Positions 12,142 through 54,209 of a stretch of DNA of 64,000 nt are shown here, piece by piece. The DNA comes from Cyanobium usitatum str. Tous (GTDB taxonomy: Bacteria > Cyanobacteriota > Cyanobacteriia > PCC-6307 > Cyanobiaceae), in NCBI RefSeq assembly GCF_003011885.1, contig NZ_PXXO01000001.1, positions 248,001-312,000 of the forward strand, written 5' to 3'. The notes under the pieces are model-generated. The model was not told the DNA's origin. It searched no databases and saw only the letters and a program-made list of their open reading frames with translations. The stretch's first letter is position 1. Every line of letters starts with the position of its first letter. The position numbers were made by a program, and so were the translations under genes.

Positions 12142-12158
12142 CCAGTTTCTTTTACTGG
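12142..12158. terminator. small inverted repeat between convergent genes
   Basis: CCAGT and ACTGG flank a T-rich loop between the ends of the convergent PhoH and HAD genes. The stem is only 5 bp and there is no long U tract beyond it, so this is at best a weak terminator. Confidence 0.25.
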
Positions 12159-13036
12159 GGCTGGAAGACGACGTTCCAATCCTGCTTCATATCCACAACT
12201 AGCCAGCCCTGCTCGGGAGCCGCTTTTAGGGCTTCTACAAGCTTGCCGGTGCTGTTCGTCTTGGCGTCGTAGGCATACTCGCGTTCAGCGTCGGTGTGAT
12301 GGACAATCAGCCCTAAACTAGGGCGAGGGTTGTTGATCGTGGTGTACTGCAACATGGCATGATCGCCATCGCTGTTGCCACAGCAAATCACAGGTCTGCG
12401 GCCGATAAACTGATGGATGCCAACTGGCTTGCCGGCCTTATCGTTTACAAACAAATAATCGAGGGTTTTGGTGATTACTGGTTTGCCGTCCCGCAGTTCG
12501 AATATGGCCCGCGATGTTGAGCCAACAACTTGTTCTAGTGGTATGCCGTAAACCTCTTCCACCCAGGCCCGCATAAAGTCGGCGCCGCCACCTGAAACAA
12601 TGAAGTTCTTAAAGCCGTTATCGCTTAGATAGCGAAGGAGCTCCTGCATGGGTTGATAGGTGAGCTCGCCATAGGCCTTGCCGTAGCGCGGGTGAAGGGC
12701 TGATGTAAACCATGCCTGCACGGCATCTCGAAATTCTTCTACCGTCATGCCTGCATGGGTGATCGCCAGGATCTGCATCAGGCCATCGAAATGTTTGCCT
12801 TCCAGAAGTTTTGCAAGATCGCCATCCAAGGCAGCTTGCACCATGGGGTTTGAAGTAAGGCTCGGCTCGGTGAGGATGCGCTGTCTCAGTTCGTCGATGG
12901 CAAAAGCTACCTGAAAAGGCAGCGGATTTTCTGGCCAGAGCGTGCCGTCGTTGTCATGCACCGCAATGCGTTCGGCTGGAATTAGGTATGCGGGTGAGTC
13001 TTTATTTGTGACTTTTTCGATGAATGCAACGATAGC
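12152..13036 (-). pseudogene. HAD hydrolase half of a gene split by an in-frame TAA
   Basis: The frame encodes a HAD phosphatase: PAERIAVHDNDGTLWPE (motif I, DxDGT), FIVSGGGADFMR (motif II) and ICCGNSDGDHAM (motif III/IV). Coding sense continues without a break upstream of the first possible start (GTG at 12961), through AIVAFIEKVTNKDSPAYLIPAERIAV. It is stopped only by the TAA at 13037-13039. In this HAD family the sequence normally runs from LPSWNDG-AKQAI straight into this segment, so the TAA looks like a mutated CAA or AAA codon. A GTG start would delete the first beta-strand. It could be silenced, or expressed by readthrough. GC is lower than its neighbours. Confidence 0.7.
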
Positions 13037-13708
13037 TTATTTGACCTGCCCTTCATTCCAAGAGGGCAGCGGATCTGCTTGGTGAGAGAGGTCGTATAGC
13101 TTTGTTTGGGCCACACCGAAATCACCTATCTGGTAAAGGCTCACGGAGGCTGATTGGAAGCCAAAGGCCTCAAATGGCTCTGCTATTAAAGCGTCTACAA
13201 AATCACTTGTGGCAATGCCTAAGGTTAGATGGGGCTGGTAGTCCGGGCCGGTCCGCCCATCGCTAAAGTTGGTCACGTAGTCAATAGTTGCCTGGCTGAT
13301 TGCATCGCCGTCAAGGCGAGGCGCAAAGGCATCACTTGTGCCATATTTCACAGCAAATGGTGCGGTGGCAGCGATAATTTTTTGCTGAAGTCGATGCTGC
13401 TCGGGAGTGGCCTCGATGTTGAATCCTACTAATTTTAGATTCTCGCTGGCTAATTCAAAGTAGCCAGTTGCTTTGCCCTCAATATTGATCGGCGGCTCAC
13501 TTCGCAGCAAGTTGGTCACGGCATCTGCTACTTGGCTCAGATCTACAGCTTTTATAAATAACTGGAGAATGGTGATGTGAGGGGCGTGGTTGGCATCTAG
13601 GGGGAAGCTGGCTGGGTAGTTTTCTCGCAGCCGCGCGTTTATCGCCTTTGCTTTCTCAACCGTGGCGGCATCTGGTTCCAACAGGACGTTGATAGCAATC
13701 AGGGGCAT
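13037..13708 (-). CDS. 2H phosphoesterase/2'-5' RNA ligase-like domain, 5' part of a split gene
   Basis: A 223-residue product from the ATG at 13708 (MPLIAINVLLEPDAATVEKA). The two histidine motifs of the 2H superfamily are present, HITIL (about residue 43) and HLTLG (about 160), so a cyclic phosphodiesterase or RNA-ligase-like activity is likely; the substrate is unknown. The last residues, DPLPSWNEGQVK, are the usual start of the HAD domain encoded just downstream in the same frame. The protein therefore ends in a severed linker. It lies 59 bases after the GlnT-like gene and has lower GC than it. Confidence 0.72.
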   Translation of the reverse strand: MPLIAINVLLEPDAATVEKAKAINARLRENYPASFPLDANHAPHITILQLFIKAVDLSQVADAVTNLLRSEPPINIEGKATGYFELASENLKLVGFNIEATPEQHRLQQKIIAATAPFAVKYGTSDAFAPRLDGDAISQATIDYVTNFSDGRTGPDYQPHLTLGIATSDFVDALIAEPFEAFGFQSASVSLYQIGDFGVAQTKLYDLSHQADPLPSWNEGQVK

Positions 13709-13767
13709 CGGCGCAGTGCTGCAAGTAGCAGGTAGTTTGAGCCTATTTCGCCGGCCGCTCGCCGGGC

Positions 13768-15084
13768 TCAACAATCCAGGCAAGCGCGGCGCTCAGTGTC
13801 GCTGATGTCGCCGCGTTCGCGCTGCCATTGGCGCCGGCGCAGCTTTTCGTAGGCCTGGCAAAACTCTTCGCCCAGGGCCTGGCGCAGGGCCGAGTCGGCC
13901 TTGAAGGCATCGAGGGCCTCGCCGAGGTTGACCGGCAGCCTGCCGCAGCTGCCGGGCTCCAGGGGCTTGGCGTAGTTGTCGTTGTCGCTGCGGGGGCCGG
14001 GATCGAGCTGGCGCTCAATGCCATCGAGTCCAGCCGCCAGGATTGCAGCCTGCAGCAGGTATGGATGGGCGGCACCATCGGGGAGGCGCAGCTCTAAGCG
14101 CTGGTCGTCGGGGATGCGCACCATGTGGGTGCGATTGTTACCGGTGTAGCTGATGCCGCCCGGACTCCAGGTAGCACCAGAGGTGGTGGGCGGGGCAGCG
14201 AGGCGCCGGTAGCTGTTCACCGTCGGGTTGCTCAGGCAGCTCAGGGCCGGCGCGTGGGCTAGCAGGCCAGCCAGGAAGTGGTAGGCAAGCGGCGATAGGC
14301 CGAGCTCGCCGACGGGATCGTGGAACAGGTTGCGGCCCGCTTGCGAGCTGCCCGCCGTGCCCCACAAGGAGAGGTGGGTGTGGCAGCCATTGCCGGTGAG
14401 GGCGGCGAATGGTTTGGGCATGAAGCTGGCCCGCAGCCCCTGCTGCTCCGCCAGGGATTTCACCATCACCTTGAAAAAGGCGTGGCGATCGGCGGTGGTG
14501 AGGGCGTTGGCATAGGTCCAGTTGACCTCAAATTGGCCGTTGGCATCCTCGTGATCGGCTTGATAGGGCCCCCAGTCCAGCTGCTCCATCGCCTCCAGCA
14601 GGGGGCCGATCAGGGGGTAGCGGCGCATTAAGGCCAGTTGGTCGTAGCAGGGCTTTTCCTGGCTGTCGGCGCTATCGCCGATCCGCTCGCCGCTGGGATC
14701 GAGCAGGAAAAACTCAGCTTCCACGCCGCTGCGCAGCTCCAGCCCCCGCTCAGCGGCCCGCTCCAGCTGGCGCCGCAGCAGGCGGCGGGGGCACTGCTCC
14801 ATCGGCTGGCCATTGAGCTGGAGCTCGGCCGCCACCCAGCCCACCCCCGGCTGCCATGGCAGGGGGGTGAGACTGGCCGCCGCCGGGATCGCCATCACGT
14901 CGCCATCGGCGGGGGAGAGATCCAGCCAGGCCGCAAAGCCGGCGAAGCCGGCCCCATCGCGGGCCATGCCCGCCACGGCCGAGGCCGGCACGAGCTTGGC
15001 CCGCTGGATGCCGAACAGGTCGGTGAAGGAGATCAGCAGGAACCGGAGCTGCAGCTCCTGCACCCGCTGGGCGAGATCAGACAT
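13768..15084 (-). CDS. type III glutamine synthetase-like ligase (GlnT/GmaS family)
   Basis: 438 residues of the glutamine synthetase fold. An N-terminal beta-grasp (FLLISFTDLFGIQRAKLVPA) is followed by SGVEAEFFLLDPSG (metal-binding Glu), GQFEVNWTYANAL, NGCHTHLSLWG (catalytic His) and RLELRLPDGAAHPYLLQAAILAAGLDGI. The short length and fold match GlnT/gamma-glutamylmethylamide synthetase-type enzymes. It is therefore probably an ATP-dependent ligase joining glutamate, or another acid, to an amine. The C-terminus is odd (ERRACLDC). It overlaps the hydrolase gene upstream by 8 bases, and so belongs to the same transcript as the desaturase. The exact substrate cannot be read from sequence. Confidence 0.85.
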   Translation of the reverse strand: MSDLAQRVQELQLRFLLISFTDLFGIQRAKLVPASAVAGMARDGAGFAGFAAWLDLSPADGDVMAIPAAASLTPLPWQPGVGWVAAELQLNGQPMEQCPRRLLRRQLERAAERGLELRSGVEAEFFLLDPSGERIGDSADSQEKPCYDQLALMRRYPLIGPLLEAMEQLDWGPYQADHEDANGQFEVNWTYANALTTADRHAFFKVMVKSLAEQQGLRASFMPKPFAALTGNGCHTHLSLWGTAGSSQAGRNLFHDPVGELGLSPLAYHFLAGLLAHAPALSCLSNPTVNSYRRLAAPPTTSGATWSPGGISYTGNNRTHMVRIPDDQRLELRLPDGAAHPYLLQAAILAAGLDGIERQLDPGPRSDNDNYAKPLEPGSCGRLPVNLGEALDAFKADSALRQALGEEFCQAYEKLRRRQWQRERGDISDTERRACLDC

Positions 15085-16078
15085 GGGACGGTTGCTGGAG
15101 AAGGGTGTCGACGATGTGGCGCAGGCTCTGTTGCTCGGCCCGGCTGCTGTGGGGGTTGCCCGCCCGGTGGCCGAGTTCCGAGCGGAGCACGTGAAGCTCC
15201 GCTCCCGGGATGGCGGCGCTGTCGGCGGCCAGGTCGTCGACTGGGAAGTAGAGGTCGTGGCTGCCGGCCACCACGGCGGTGCGGGCTTGGATGCGGCCGA
15301 GGCTGGCGGCCAGGTCGCCGCCGGAGGCCACGTCGTGGGCCAGCCAGGTGTCGAGCATGGCGATCAGGTCGCGCGGGTCGTGGCGTTGGTAGTGGGGCAG
15401 CCACTGCTGCTCCACGTGGTCTTCGACCGGTTCGGCGAGGCTGCGGAAGAAGGGCTGGCTGGCGGCCCAGCTGGAGTAGATGAGGGCGTAGGTGCGCAGC
15501 CCCTGCTCCGGCGGTGCGTTGAAGCCCCCACCGTTCCAGTGGCGATCGGCGGTGAGGGCCTGGCGCAGGCTGAGGCAGAACAGGCGGTTGTGGGGGGAGG
15601 TGCGGGCGGTGCCGCACACGCAGCAGATCCGCTCCACCGCCTCCGGGTGATCGACGGCCCACTGGTAGGCCTGCTGGGCCCCCATCGACCAGCCGTAGAT
15701 CAGGGGGAGCCGTTCGACACCGAACACCTCCGCCAGCAGTCGCCGTTGGGCGGCAACGTTGTCGCGGTGGCTCACCACCCAGCCCTGTTCGGCCAGGCCC
15801 ATGGCCCCGTGGCTGGGGCTGCTGGAGGCGCCGTTGCCGAACATGCCGGCGATGACGATGCACCACCGCTCCGGATCCAGCACCGGCCCCGCCAGCCAGG
15901 CCAGATCCTCGGGCCGGGCGCCATAGGAGGTGGGCACCAGGATCAGGTTGGAGCGCTGGGCGTTGAGCTCACCGATCGTGAGGTAGCTGAGCTGGGCCCC
16001 AGGCAGGGTGCGGCCGCAGGCCAGGGGAAGGTCGCCCAGGGCGTGCTGGGCGCGACGGGCGACAGCGGTGGCGCTCAT
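15077..16078 (-). CDS. alpha/beta hydrolase, MetX-like (homoserine acetyltransferase superfamily)
   Basis: 333 residues from the ATG at 16078. The fold and motifs are those of the homoserine O-acetyltransferase superfamily: LSYLTIGELNAQRSNLILVPTS, nucleophile elbow IYGWSMGAQQAYQWA, catalytic Asp in AGSHDLYFPVDD and catalytic His in SELGHRAGNP. True MetX acts in methionine synthesis. Here the context (desaturase and GlnT-like ligase) points to an acyl transfer or hydrolysis step in another pathway. The start overlaps the desaturase stop as ATGA. The longer frame upstream is a proline/arginine-rich shadow of the desaturase. Confidence 0.85.
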   Translation of the reverse strand: MSATAVARRAQHALGDLPLACGRTLPGAQLSYLTIGELNAQRSNLILVPTSYGARPEDLAWLAGPVLDPERWCIVIAGMFGNGASSSPSHGAMGLAEQGWVVSHRDNVAAQRRLLAEVFGVERLPLIYGWSMGAQQAYQWAVDHPEAVERICCVCGTARTSPHNRLFCLSLRQALTADRHWNGGGFNAPPEQGLRTYALIYSSWAASQPFFRSLAEPVEDHVEQQWLPHYQRHDPRDLIAMLDTWLAHDVASGGDLAASLGRIQARTAVVAGSHDLYFPVDDLAADSAAIPGAELHVLRSELGHRAGNPHSSRAEQQSLRHIVDTLLQQPSHV

Positions 16079-16992
16079 GCCGGCAGGCCCAGGGCCGGCA
16101 GGTTGCGCAGCAGGCGGCGGTGCACCGCCAGGTAGCCCCGATCGCAGTGGCGCAGGTGCGGGGCGATGGGGCCGTGGGCGGCGGGCAGGGCGTGGAAGGG
16201 CAGGGAGGGGTAGAGGTGGTGTTCGGCGTGGAACGGCATGTTCCACATCAGCCAGCGCACGGCCGGATGGGTGAGGGTGGTGCGGGTGTTGTCGGTGCCG
16301 TCGCTGCTGAAGCTGCAGCCCGTGTGTTCCGCCAGCAGCAGAACCCTCAGCGCGGGCTGACCGAGCGCCAGGGGCAGCAGCCAGAACCAGAACAGAAAGC
16401 CGGTGCCGCCCACCAGGGAGGCCAGGGCCAGGACGGCGTAAACGGCGAACTGCAGCCGCACGGAGCGCCGCACCTGGGGAATGGCCTCAGGGCTCAGGTA
16501 GCTCAGGCCGCTGAGGTCTCCCCAGAGCAGCCGCGTGTAGCCGCTCCACTTACCGGTCCACCAGTTCCAGCCGCTCACCTCGCGGAGATAGGCCCAGGGG
16601 TTGGTGGGAACGGGATCCTCCAGCTCGGGATCGAGGCCCGGTTGGTGGGTGTAGCGGTGGTGCCACTGGTGGTAGCGCCGGTAATAGGTGGAGTTGTAGA
16701 AGCTCAGTAGCCCGGCGATCCAGGCCACGCCGTCGTTGACGCGGCGGCTGCGGAAGGCCGTGCGATGGCAGCACTCGTGCAGGGGGGCGAAGCAGGTGGC
16801 CAGGCCAATGCCACACAGCAGCAGACCCGCCAGCCTGAGACCCAGGGGCCAGGGCGCCTGGCCCCACACCAGGCCGCCCGCCAAAGTCGTCAGCAGGTGG
16901 CTGGCCAGGCGCACGGCTGCGGGGCCATCACGCAGCTGGTTGAGGCTGGCCAGCGCATCGCGCTCCAGCAGGGGTGGGTTGGATTGGGCCAT
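16075..16992 (-). CDS. fatty acid desaturase-like membrane di-iron enzyme
   Basis: 305 residues with three intact histidine boxes: LHECCH (HxxxH, about residue 71), YHQWHH (HxxHH, about 107) and FHAEHH (HxxHH, about 254). Hydrophobic pairs lie at about 35-65, 85-100 and 185-215. This is the di-iron membrane oxidase superfamily, which includes acyl desaturases, CrtR-type hydroxylases and MocD. The protein is not a close match to the DesA/DesC patterns I know. The ATG follows the upstream GGDEF-EAL stop by 5 bases and has AGGG just ahead. It is co-transcribed with the hydrolase and ligase downstream. Confidence 0.85.
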   Translation of the reverse strand: MAQSNPPLLERDALASLNQLRDGPAAVRLASHLLTTLAGGLVWGQAPWPLGLRLAGLLLCGIGLATCFAPLHECCHRTAFRSRRVNDGVAWIAGLLSFYNSTYYRRYHQWHHRYTHQPGLDPELEDPVPTNPWAYLREVSGWNWWTGKWSGYTRLLWGDLSGLSYLSPEAIPQVRRSVRLQFAVYAVLALASLVGGTGFLFWFWLLPLALGQPALRVLLLAEHTGCSFSSDGTDNTRTTLTHPAVRWLMWNMPFHAEHHLYPSLPFHALPAAHGPIAPHLRHCDRGYLAVHRRLLRNLPALGLPA

Positions 16993-16997
16993 GGGCC

Positions 16998-18758
16998 CTA
17001 TCCCACCAGCCCGGGAGCCCCGGCTTCGGTAGGCGATGTGACCGTTTGAGTGTCTTGCAGGGCGCCCTGGGGTTGGAGACTTTCAATCTCCCCGACGTCC
17101 CGGGAGGGGCCGAGGAAGGCCCCCTGGCCCAGGCGCACCCCCATCGCCAGCAGTTCCTGACGGGTCTCTTGGTCGCCCACGAACTCAGCCACCACCATGG
17201 TCCCGAGTCCCTTGGCCAGCTTCACCACCGCCTCGATGATCAGGCGGTCGGCGGGGTCGTGTTCCATGCCCAGGCCGCGCACGTATTCCCCGGCGATTTT
17301 GAGCAGATCGACGGGCAGATGTTTGAGGTAGTAGAAGCTGCCGAAGGCGGCTCCGAAGTCGTCCAGCGCCAGCCGGCAGCCGAGTTTGGTGAGCACCCGG
17401 CCAAACTGGCGGGCCCGTTCGAGGTTGGCCATCGCCACCGATTCCGTGAGCTCAAAGATCAGCAGCTCGCGGGGGAAGCTGGTGCCTGCCAGGTGGGTTT
17501 CGAGGAACTGGGCGAAACGATCCCCCTGCAGGGACGCGCCACTGATGTTCACCCCCAGGGCGATGGGTTGGGCCTGGTTCATCTCCTCCAGCAAGGTGAT
17601 GGCCCGCCCGGTGACCCACTCATCGATGTCGATGGCCATGCCGAAGCGTTCGGCCGTGTAGAGGAACACCGCCGGGGGAATCAGGACGCCTCCGGGGGCC
17701 CGCAGCCGGATCACCAGCTCGTAGAAGGCCACCGCATTTGTTTGCAGATCGATCACCGGTTTGGCGTGCAGCACGAAGCCGTCGTGGTCGAGGGCTTCTC
17801 GGATGCGCTCCGACCACAGCAACCGGGCCGTCACCTTTTCGTGCAGGCCGCTGTCGGCGGCAAATACCTTGACGCAGCCTCGGCCCGATTCCTTGGCCTG
17901 GTACAGGGCCAGGTCGGCGTTTATCAACACGTCGTCGGCGCACTGGCCATCGTCGCTGTGGAAACCTGCCACCCCGCAGCTGGCGGCCACGGTGATGCCT
18001 TGGCCGACCCCCTCCACAACCACAGCACCTATGGCCTGGAGCAGCTTTTCGGAGTGGGTTTCGGCCTCGCTGAGGCTGGATTCCGGTAGCAGCACGGCGA
18101 ATTCATCGCCCCCCAGCCGGGCCACCAGATCGGTTTCGCGCGAGTTGCCGGTGAGTGCGGCGGACACCGCGATAATAAGGGCATCGCCGGCGGCGTGGCC
18201 GTACTCGTCGTTGACCTCCTTGAAGTTGTCAAGGTCGAGCATCAGCACAGCGCCGCCGCCGCCATGGCGGCGGCCGTAGGCGAGCTGGCGGTCGACGTCG
18301 ATGCGGAAGCGGCGCTGGTTGAATAGCGAGGTGAGCGGGTCGTGGTCGGCGAAGTATTCCAGCTGGCCGACGAAATGCTTGCGCTCGGATATGTCGTGCA
18401 CCTGCACCACCAAGGTCCCCTGGCGGCTGCCACCAGCGTCGTTGCCCTGGGCCACCGTTACTAGTCCCCAGGTGCGATGGCCATCGGCGTGTTCAAAGCG
18501 TTTCTCAAAGCTGCAGCTCTCTACCTGGCCACTGCTCAGTCTGGCGAGCTGGTCTTCCCCGAGGGCGACATCGTCGCGGTGCACAAGCTCTGCAAACGCC
18601 AGCCCCGTCAGCGCCTCCATCGAGCGGCCGGTAAAAAAGGCCATGGCCCCATTGGCTGACTGGATCAAGCCCAGACCACCCCGCTCATCGCTGGGAACAA
18701 CAAAGGCCATCGGGATGCCGGCATCAGCAAAGGCGCTGTCGTTCAAAAATAGGGTCAT
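16998..18758 (-). CDS. PAS-GGDEF-EAL cyclic di-GMP protein
   Basis: 586 residues without membrane spans. A PAS domain (about 10-130, with the PAC-like TWGLVTVAQ...VVQVHDISERKH) is followed by GGDEF (VARLGGDEFAVLL, about 219) and EAL (about 330-560). The GGDEF signature is intact. The EAL signature reads YELVIRL, that is ELV where EAL is usual. The other phosphodiesterase residues look present: Asn in LGVNISG, Glu in IFELTES, the DD pair in LALDDFG and Lys in VDLLKIAG. It may make or break c-di-GMP. Its stop is 5 bases from the desaturase start, so it may control or share the transcript of that operon. Confidence 0.9.
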   Translation of the reverse strand: MTLFLNDSAFADAGIPMAFVVPSDERGGLGLIQSANGAMAFFTGRSMEALTGLAFAELVHRDDVALGEDQLARLSSGQVESCSFEKRFEHADGHRTWGLVTVAQGNDAGGSRQGTLVVQVHDISERKHFVGQLEYFADHDPLTSLFNQRRFRIDVDRQLAYGRRHGGGGAVLMLDLDNFKEVNDEYGHAAGDALIIAVSAALTGNSRETDLVARLGGDEFAVLLPESSLSEAETHSEKLLQAIGAVVVEGVGQGITVAASCGVAGFHSDDGQCADDVLINADLALYQAKESGRGCVKVFAADSGLHEKVTARLLWSERIREALDHDGFVLHAKPVIDLQTNAVAFYELVIRLRAPGGVLIPPAVFLYTAERFGMAIDIDEWVTGRAITLLEEMNQAQPIALGVNISGASLQGDRFAQFLETHLAGTSFPRELLIFELTESVAMANLERARQFGRVLTKLGCRLALDDFGAAFGSFYYLKHLPVDLLKIAGEYVRGLGMEHDPADRLIIEAVVKLAKGLGTMVVAEFVGDQETRQELLAMGVRLGQGAFLGPSRDVGEIESLQPQGALQDTQTVTSPTEAGAPGLVG

Positions 18759-54004: not shown

Positions 54005-54020
54005 TCGGCCTACACTTCCA

Positions 54021-54199
54021 TAGGACTGTCTTGTTGGTGAATGCCTTTTACAGTTTTCTGATCTGACTCCCTTTTCGACATGGGGGTCTGCAGCGGAAGC
54101 AACGTAAACCGGCCTCGTAGCCGGAAACGGCGCCCCGTCCTTGACCCTCTTCTGGTTCCACCAGGTCGAACACTGGGGCAAAACGGCACGGCGGTCCAC
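54021..54199 (+). ncRNA. ssaA: candidate 6S RNA
   Basis: The roughly 200 bases between purK and the convergent nitroreductase hold no gene. They could fold as a long rod: GGACTG at 54023-54028 pairs with CGGTCC at 54192-54197, and an apical hairpin CTGGT-tcc-ACCAG closes the middle. Size (about 180) and position downstream of purK match the 6S RNA gene described in Synechococcus, where it can be co-transcribed with purK. 6S RNA binds RNA polymerase and modulates promoter use in stationary phase. The exact ends are estimates. Confidence 0.6.
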
Positions 54200-54209
54200 C
54201 CCTTTCAAA

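Follow-up and report, generated by a model that had tools for sequence, protein, structure and literature searches.

A conserved cyanobacterial trio of membrane oxygenase, hydrolase and predicted GmaS-type ligase, possibly serving amine-nitrogen scavenging

The degradation of isopropylamine (Ipu) and of aniline begins with glutamylation, and that of 1-naphthylamine reportedly does so too (PMC11335346). The acetyl esterase MekB belongs to the methyl ethyl ketone pathway. In methylotrophs, the N-methylglutamate pathway (mgsABC-gmaS-mgdABCD) includes the ligase gamma-glutamylmethylamide synthetase (GmaS), and the mgs/gmaS/mgd order is given for another strain in PMC11446756. The rhizopine O-demethylase consists of MocD, MocE and MocF; the namesake of the mocD class is the oxygenase that converts 3-O-methyl-scyllo-inosamine to scyllo-inosamine (PMC2593844). 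In Synechocystis, sll1080-1082 are given with the guanidinase gene in the operon sll1077-1082 (PMC8390497), a Guanidine-I riboswitch operon of the gdmH-hypAB-ABC type. In marine picocyanobacteria, a guanidine cluster with a Rieske gene and a Nit1C cluster have already been described (PMC10119275). Here we describe three adjacent genes in a 64,000-nucleotide stretch of Cyanobium usitatum str. Tous (contig NZ_PXXO01000001.1, positions 248,001–312,000; the window). They encode a membrane di-iron oxygenase (DES), an alpha/beta hydrolase (HYD) and a predicted GmaS-type ligase (GS). The component families are known, and the combination of the three appears to be new; no description of the trio was found in the literature searched.

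GS has the same ten signature residues as Pseudomonadota GmaS and lies in the same clade. Unlike the N-methylglutamate pathway, however, the trio stands without mgs and mgd genes and includes a membrane oxygenase and a hydrolase. Using an MgsC profile (E ≤ 1e-40), no match was found in the genome of the window and in 230 others of the 251 genomes of the family sample; the search did not extend to MgsA, MgsB or the dehydrogenase. A distant MgsC-like glutamate-synthase-domain match (155–242 bits) occurs in 20 of the 251 genomes, and all 20 are trio genomes. The trio shares with glutamylation-first amine degradation the logic of a ligase and an oxygenase, and Ipu also has a hydrolase, whereas the trio's oxygenase is of the membrane di-iron type, its ligase is GmaS-type by prediction and its hydrolase is of the MekB type. 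DES belongs to the same superfamily as MocD, and cyanobacterial members of its class are labelled mocD (PMC2593844). However, MocE/MocF-type genes were not observed next to DES in trio loci, and the identity of DES is 30.6% to a MocE-linked rhizobial relative, which was used for this comparison in place of a characterised MocD sequence. MekB is the closest solved fold to HYD and has the same triad, but the identity is 37% and its partner oxygenase is of another type. The Guanidine-I riboswitch operon adjoins the trio in many Cyanobiaceae, whereas the window trio stands without it, and the trio is not named in the relevant passages of PMC8390497 and PMC10119275.

With the ligase as query, 89 loci encoding a relative were found, and the best 80 were named. 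DES, HYD and GS are adjacent on one strand, as an intact trio, in 60 of these 80 loci; 16 are non-cyanobacterial by label, and four were set aside (L009, L013 and L030, cut by contig ends, and L072, a ligase fragment alone). L005 was counted despite its broken HYD. The gene order is DES-HYD-GS in all 61 named loci holding the three genes (window copy excluded), and these loci lie in several different contexts. One contig labelled as a Bifidobacterium breve metagenome-assembled genome (L040) carries a cyanobacterial trio and is a mislabelled or contaminated bin. According to the family sample, DES and HYD are present in the same 82 genomes (the lists were compared side by side), and the trio-type ligase is present in 80; 79 of these have DES and HYD as well. 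The 80th ligase genome, G044, has a ligase fragment without DES or HYD, as L072 does; these are possibly decayed trios. G047, G107 and G074 have DES and HYD with no match to the trio-type ligase. In G107 and G074, HYD starts no more than 82 bases from the end of its contig, and in G047 it is partial. Only a DES fragment is present in G232.

In the phylum sample (292 genomes), DES was found in 22, HYD in 13 and a TIGR03105 ligase over the cut-off in 15, and all 13 HYD genomes also have DES and the ligase. DES is adjacent to HYD in each of the nine non-family genomes with HYD, although DES is in two pieces in G450 (C56:471-1363, two overlapping frames). In a genome with DES only, G409, the DES frame contains three internal TAG codons (C3:2914373-2915272). 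A Leptolyngbya plasmid carries the intact trio, one Nostoc plasmid carries HYD-GS without DES alongside, and another Nostoc plasmid carries DES alone within the stretch examined. The presence counts are not independent events because the genomes are related, and the varying contexts are better evidence. Chance adjacency was rejected on the co-occurrence of DES and HYD in the family sample and the ligase in nearly all of the same genomes. An earlier note on this DNA had proposed a single functional unit, with conservation elsewhere as the test. With all three genes in 79 of 251 family genomes and 13 of 292 phylum genomes, the trio passes this test; it is a real and conserved unit, which supports a single function.

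The score of GS against TIGR03105 is 592.4 bits (cut-off 469.6). This model alone cannot tell GmaS from GS2, which passes too; GS2 is a second GmaS/GlnT-like ligase, located within the Guanidine-I riboswitch operon (gdmH, hypA, hypB, ABC genes and often Rieske). The closest solved structure to GS by sequence is RhGmaS (7cql, E 3e-169). The catalytic residues of RhGmaS are given as Arg312, Asp177 and Glu186, and the methylamine pocket is formed by Tyr147, Gln175, Asp177, Glu179, Glu186, Asn188 and Lys30 of the neighbouring subunit. GmaS differs from glutamine synthetase in that Ala48 replaces the ammonia-binding Asp and Trp300 replaces the flap Glu (PMC7948447). These ten residues (catalytic, pocket and the two ammonia-site losses) were used as the GmaS signature. 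The window GS has all ten: Lys30, Ala48, Tyr147, Gln175, Asp177, Glu179, Glu186, Asn188, Trp306 and Arg318, of which Trp306 and Arg318 are aligned with Trp300 and Arg312 of RhGmaS. The ammonia-site residues of ordinary glutamine synthetase (Asp50-type and Glu304-type) are not in the window GS, which has Ala48 and Trp306 instead, and its score against the GlnA model TIGR00653 is 264 bits (cut-off 429). Wherever the column is filled, the full signature is conserved in the 60 other trio ligases, a single locus with Leu at 306 being the exception; it is also complete in five of five distant cyanobacterial ligases. Seven Pseudomonadota ligases have the identical ten-residue string, and four of these are beside mgsABC (as gene-called); an eighth, L076, is without its first part. 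In Methylocella-type loci the ligase lies within an order that we read as mgsA-mgsB-mgsC-gmaS-mgdA-B-C, presuming these gene names. The ordinary-type group (Nocardia and others) shows VDFFHEEDER in four of five rows, and the fifth ends in Ser.

In the maximum-likelihood tree of 54 rows, a 34-row clade (100/99) unites the trio ligases, the distant cyanobacterial ligases and the seven Pseudomonadota GmaS, including Methylocella, and this clade is separate from GS2 and from the Nocardia group. L084 was omitted from the tree because it is too short. The L106 row, which bears the label GlnA, shares nine signature residues, but its identity is only about 30% and its branch is very long; no inference was drawn from it. 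By residues and tree, GS is predicted to be a GmaS-type ligase outside the ordinary glutamine synthetases. The earlier description of it as a GlnT-like ligase was right as to an amide ligase of the glutamine-synthetase fold and wrong as to the GlnT label; the tree placement which it proposed puts GS apart from ordinary glutamine synthetases and with the mgs-linked GmaS. The idea that GS is an ordinary glutamine synthetase beside unrelated genes has the family name 'type III glutamate--ammonia ligase' in its favour. It is contradicted by the loss of the ammonia-site residues, by the separate clade and by the 79 of 251 genomes in which the ligase accompanies DES and HYD; it was rejected, and we give it almost no credence. 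A cyanobacterial GmaS per se is not new, because the legend of Fig. 10 of PMC7948447 has Cyanophyceae among the GmaS rows.

The Pfam scores of the trio proteins are 131.5 bits for DES against PF00487 (cut-off 29.7), 303 for GS against PF00120 (24) and 34 for HYD against PF00561 (25.8). Nine His residues of DES (three boxes plus AEH) are identical in the window and in all 79 aligned relatives, whereas His291 is variable; the three His boxes of a membrane di-iron oxidase, noticed before, are thus confirmed. DES is below the cut-off of every named NCBIfam model (score/cut-off: DesA 34/500, DesB 19/500, CrtR 28.5/475 and GntB 45.6/380), and phmmer, run with DES on the PDB sequences, retrieved nothing up to E 1. 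In its predicted model (mean local confidence, pLDDT, 84.8), the fold matches are chloroplast motor-complex chains (8xks_K/8xqw_M, Z 17), AlkB (Z 9.9) and SCD1 (Z under 8), and these predicted-fold matches say little about the substrate. In 2008, eight proteins among 37 cyanobacterial genomes were classed as mocD by similarity, and the list includes Synpcc7942_1713, tlr1254 and WH5701_02369 (PMC2593844). We tied DES relatives to this list by gene length and strain. L037 (WH 5701) carries the trio, and its DES read from an ATG is 972 bases, the length listed as mocD. The DES of L101 (306 aa) matches tlr1254 (921 bases) in length, and a 300-aa reading in L096 matches Synpcc7942_1713 (903 bases); we infer that L101 and L096 are the organisms of these two genes. 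L101, if Thermosynechococcus, has DES without HYD or GmaS. By its mocD class label, DES would be related to an oxidative demethylase.

HYD scores 344.2 bits against NF005757/PRK07581 (cut-off 332), a family still named 'hypothetical protein'. Both MetX models failed, with 105.7 bits (cut-off 331) and 103.6 bits (cut-off 500). The best fold match of the predicted HYD model (pLDDT 90.5) is the MekB acetyl esterase 5efz, with Z 44.6 and 1.9 Å over 323 residues, followed by a Corynebacterium acetylester hydrolase (Z 43.6) and then MetX structures (Z ≤ 39.1). The triad Ser131/Asp275/His304 is identical in the window and all 75 aligned relatives, the only exception being a truncated reading with a gap at Ser131. 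HYD thus appears nearest to the MekB esterase, and its esterase activity is a prediction from sequence and model. The former view of a MetX-like hydrolase holds for the alpha/beta hydrolase with intact Ser, Asp and His, and is not supported for an acyltransferase of the MetX kind; a MetX homoserine acetyltransferase was rejected, its models being far below cut-off and MekB the nearest fold. In close relatives of the window, HYD is split (G106, C4:6044-7014, two pieces) or broken (L005), as a result of assembly error or a fresh pseudogene.

Among the 60 trio loci, 25 are beside guanidine-island parts, seven others are beside the Nit1C nitrilase, and 28 are beside neither, some of them on short contigs. 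gdmH itself was seen in four trio loci (L011, L014, L015 and L051), all with a Guanidine-I riboswitch. We chose 16 GS2 regions by hand (L135-L150: 15 of the 49 from the family and G411), some of which coincide with trio loci. The Guanidine-I riboswitch exceeds the Rfam gathering score in all 16, with gdmH, hypA, hypB and GS2 after it; in G411, GS2 is ahead of hypB. In nine longer family stretches, SsuA-type ABC genes come next in nine and a Rieske gene in six. The pocket of GS2 is unlike that of GmaS, with Ser175 and Asp188 in 17 of 19 rows and gaps in the rest. GS2 is present in 49 of the 251 family genomes, every one with DES, and 33 of the 82 trio genomes have no GS2 match at E ≤ 1e-70. In the 64-kb window, only a 6S RNA (54020-54201, 73 bits) reached the gathering score and no riboswitch was found; the rest of the genome was not searched for gdmH. 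No guanidine riboswitch was found in L098, L100, L106, L107, L109, the Leptolyngbya and Rhodobacteraceae plasmids or the lone-ligase stretches; the RNA searches did not cover L095-L097 and L105. In a term search of the main texts of PMC12186494, PMC8390497, PMC11410670 and PMC10119275, 'glutamine synthetase' and 'glutamyl' did not occur, nor did desaturase, glnT or methylamine in the main text of PMC10119275. A chemical precedent is given in PMC11446756, where a metformin degrader has dmm and gmaS together with hypAB and a hydrolase of the agmatinase family.

HYD relatives are also found on non-cyanobacterial plasmids. Six such plasmids were hand-picked, a non-random choice, and in four the HYD relative lies among nitrogen genes (pyrimidine, urea/amide or guanidino clusters). 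It is accompanied by dihydropyrimidinase and carbamoylase in Deinococcus D7000, by cytosine permease, urtBCDE and amidase in Roseibium, by amidase and cytosine permease in Paraburkholderia, and by a ligase and agmatinase in Rhodobacteraceae M382. In the last (L124, CP081100.1), a 22-kb stretch contains relatives of Rieske (28%), DES (28%), ABC, HYD (39%), GS2 (40%) and agmatinase, together with a 5-guanidino-2-oxopentanoate decarboxylase and an Xaa-Pro peptidase family protein.

According to these results, the trio may serve to scavenge nitrogen from a small primary amine, with methylamine the likeliest candidate, by ligation, oxidation and hydrolysis in that order; we place this reading somewhat short of an even chance. 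GS, judged by its family, residues and tree, would ligate the amine to glutamate with ATP to give the gamma-glutamyl amide. DES would then oxidise the N-alkyl carbon to an N-hydroxyalkyl or N-acyl amide, and HYD would cleave the oxidised amide. The amine nitrogen would enter the glutamine/glutamate pool, and the carbon would leave as aldehyde or acid. The small size of the amine, its probable identity as methylamine, the glutamyl amide as substrate of DES and the oxidised product as that of HYD are what we infer from the parts. The methylamine might come from alkylguanidines or other methylated amines. DES and HYD would stand in for N-methylglutamate synthase and dehydrogenase. More broadly, and on balance doubtfully, the trio could represent an undescribed aerobic cyanobacterial amine route, in which GmaS-type tagging with oxidative N-dealkylation by DES and HYD takes the place of the N-methylglutamate pathway. 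This route would, in many Cyanobiaceae, be joined to the guanidine-riboswitch operon with its GS2-Rieske pair, so that a single island would handle guanidine as well as alkyl amines or alkylguanidines.

Several observations weigh against amine scavenging by the trio as a unit. Of the 22 phylum genomes carrying DES, nine have neither HYD nor the ligase, and in G255 and G310 a TIGR03105 ligase, 48–50% identical to that of the window, occurs without DES or HYD. Around these two ligases, the trio, guanidine and Nit1C queries gave no match nearby, save another ligase in G255. In the nine distant cyanobacteria with HYD, GS adjoins DES-HYD in five, in one of them (G304) on the opposite strand next to DES, and is elsewhere in the genome in four. 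The actinobacterial ligases L075 and L084, located beside mgs genes, depart from the signature with Ala at 175, and L075, which has a long branch, does not join the GmaS clade; long-branch joins are a caution for the tree. The nitrogen neighbours sought were found neither in 28 of the 60 trio loci nor in the window, within the available DNA. The canonical NtcA-type site GTA-N8-TAC was found in 0 of 60 loci within 400 bases 5' of DES (control, 9 of 678 other genes; looser sites were not tried), and NtcA control through this site was rejected. The promoter could sit further up where DES closely follows another gene, which tempers this negative. On two plasmids, L122 (Paroceanicella) and L123 (Cupriavidus pRK1-2), HYD-DES is beside an iron alcohol dehydrogenase with no ligase; DES-HYD can thus act on something besides a glutamyl amide. 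This suggests a general oxygenase-plus-esterase pair, which cyanobacteria have coupled to the ligase. The dehydrogenase scores 523 bits in Cupriavidus and 479 in Paroceanicella against the 4-hydroxybutyrate dehydrogenase model (cut-off 500), and at a guess the pair serves cyclic ether or lactone breakdown. A rubredoxin and a rubredoxin-reductase-like gene are also present in Cupriavidus. Membrane di-iron enzymes do not usually act on polar cytosolic amides, although MocD is a reported precedent. The activities of GS, DES and HYD are all predicted.

The order of the steps may be the reverse: DES and HYD would free a small amine from a larger nitrogen compound, such as a methylated amine, an ester or an N-alkyl amide, and the freed amine would be trapped by the GmaS-type ligase as a gamma-glutamyl amide. 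The invariant order DES-HYD-GS is in favour of this, as is the tighter pairing of DES with HYD, which are adjacent in all nine distant cyanobacteria with HYD while GS is adjacent in only five; the pair without a ligase on the two proteobacterial plasmids points the same way. However, gene order tells little about reaction order, and a Nostoc plasmid has HYD-GS with no DES alongside. No further enzyme for gamma-glutamyl amides is common to all trio loci, so that an unlinked amidase would be needed. We consider this reading unlikely. The order oxidise-hydrolyse-ligate, which the earlier note gave, is not established, and ligate-oxidise-hydrolyse is at least as plausible. It is similarly improbable that the substrate is an alkylguanidine or arginine derivative and the trio the far end of a guanidine-riboswitch regulon. 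Guanidine-island parts adjoin 25 of the 60 trio loci, the riboswitch with gdmH, hypA and hypB is in every chosen GS2 region, and all 49 GS2 genomes have DES, but these counts are inflated by shared ancestry. Homologues of the set (Rieske at just 28%) accompany the 5-guanidino-2-oxopentanoate decarboxylase on the Rhodobacteraceae plasmid, and the arginine hydroxylase GntB is the top-scoring named model for the DES of the window, L122, L123 and L126, far under its cut-off. On the other hand, no riboswitch was found in the window, in L098, L100, L106, L107 and L109, on the Leptolyngbya and Rhodobacteraceae plasmids or around the lone ligases, the GS2 match is absent in 33 of 82 trio genomes, and the trio ligase retains an unaltered methylamine pocket.

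The earlier note also proposed the biosynthesis of a modified amide. A gamma-glutamyl amide could be made as an osmolyte, storage or signalling compound; the three-enzyme operon is compact, and the GmaS of Methylovorus mays expressed in Synechocystis yields theanine (PMC12588301). In the same source, Synechocystis also consumes theanine, the control strain included. No tailoring or export gene is common to all loci, and the recurrent neighbours are catabolic nitrogen genes. Catabolic nitrogen scavenging is likelier than biosynthesis because 32 of the 60 loci are beside guanidine-island or Nit1C-type nitrogen genes, and we regard biosynthesis as very unlikely.

The positions of the genes are listed in Table 1. 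The three genes are intact and overlapping as first described, on one strand with the ATGA and 8-base overlaps and with complete catalytic sets. The 4-base overlap of DES and HYD is also found in 35 of the 60 other trio loci as gene-called, gene calling being rough on high-GC loci.

Table 1. Genes and overlaps of the trio in window coordinates
Feature	Position	Strand	Description
DES	16075..16992	-	305 aa; membrane di-iron oxygenase, fatty-acid-desaturase superfamily, 'mocD'-type class
HYD	15077..16078	-	333 aa, ATG at 16078-16076; alpha/beta hydrolase, MekB-esterase-like (PRK07581/NF005757)
GS	13768..15084	-	438 aa; predicted gamma-glutamylmethylamide-synthetase (GmaS)-type ligase, TIGR03105
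DES-HYD stop/start overlap ATGA	16075..16078	-	4 bases, from sequence
HYD-GS overlap	15077..15084	-	8 bases, from sequence

A PAS-GGDEF-EAL gene on the same strand (16998-18758) ends 5 bases 5' of DES, so the transcript may begin further up in the window strain; a relative of this gene is also ahead of DES in L005, L006 and L008. Between GS and PhoH lies a 2H-phosphoesterase and HAD pair of low guanine-plus-cytosine content (GC) (12152-13735; 0.523). The pair is present in L005, whose ligase is 99% identical, but is missing from L006-L010, in which GS is immediately followed by PhoH; this suggests that the pair is an insertion. The GC of the trio is 0.699 and that of the window 0.654; at third codon positions the trio has 0.85-0.91 and its neighbours 0.81 and 0.86. 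The trio is higher in GC than the 2H/HAD genes, as noticed previously, but the deviating part is the 2H/HAD pair and not the trio. A foreign origin of the trio from GC was therefore rejected.

Cyanobacterial phototrophs are thought to take up mainly ammonium, nitrate, urea and cyanate. Synechococcus elongatus is a genetic model. It has a TIGR03105 ligase over the cut-off and the mocD-listed Synpcc7942_1713 (PMC2593844), and the question of the trio is thus directly testable. If amine scavenging by the trio is true, functions would be given to the 'mocD' desaturase class (PMC2593844) and to the PRK07581 hydrolase family. As gmaS is a validated marker of methylamine users (PMC7948447), marker surveys could misread the cyanobacterial route. 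Phototrophs would then also use methylamine-type nitrogen.

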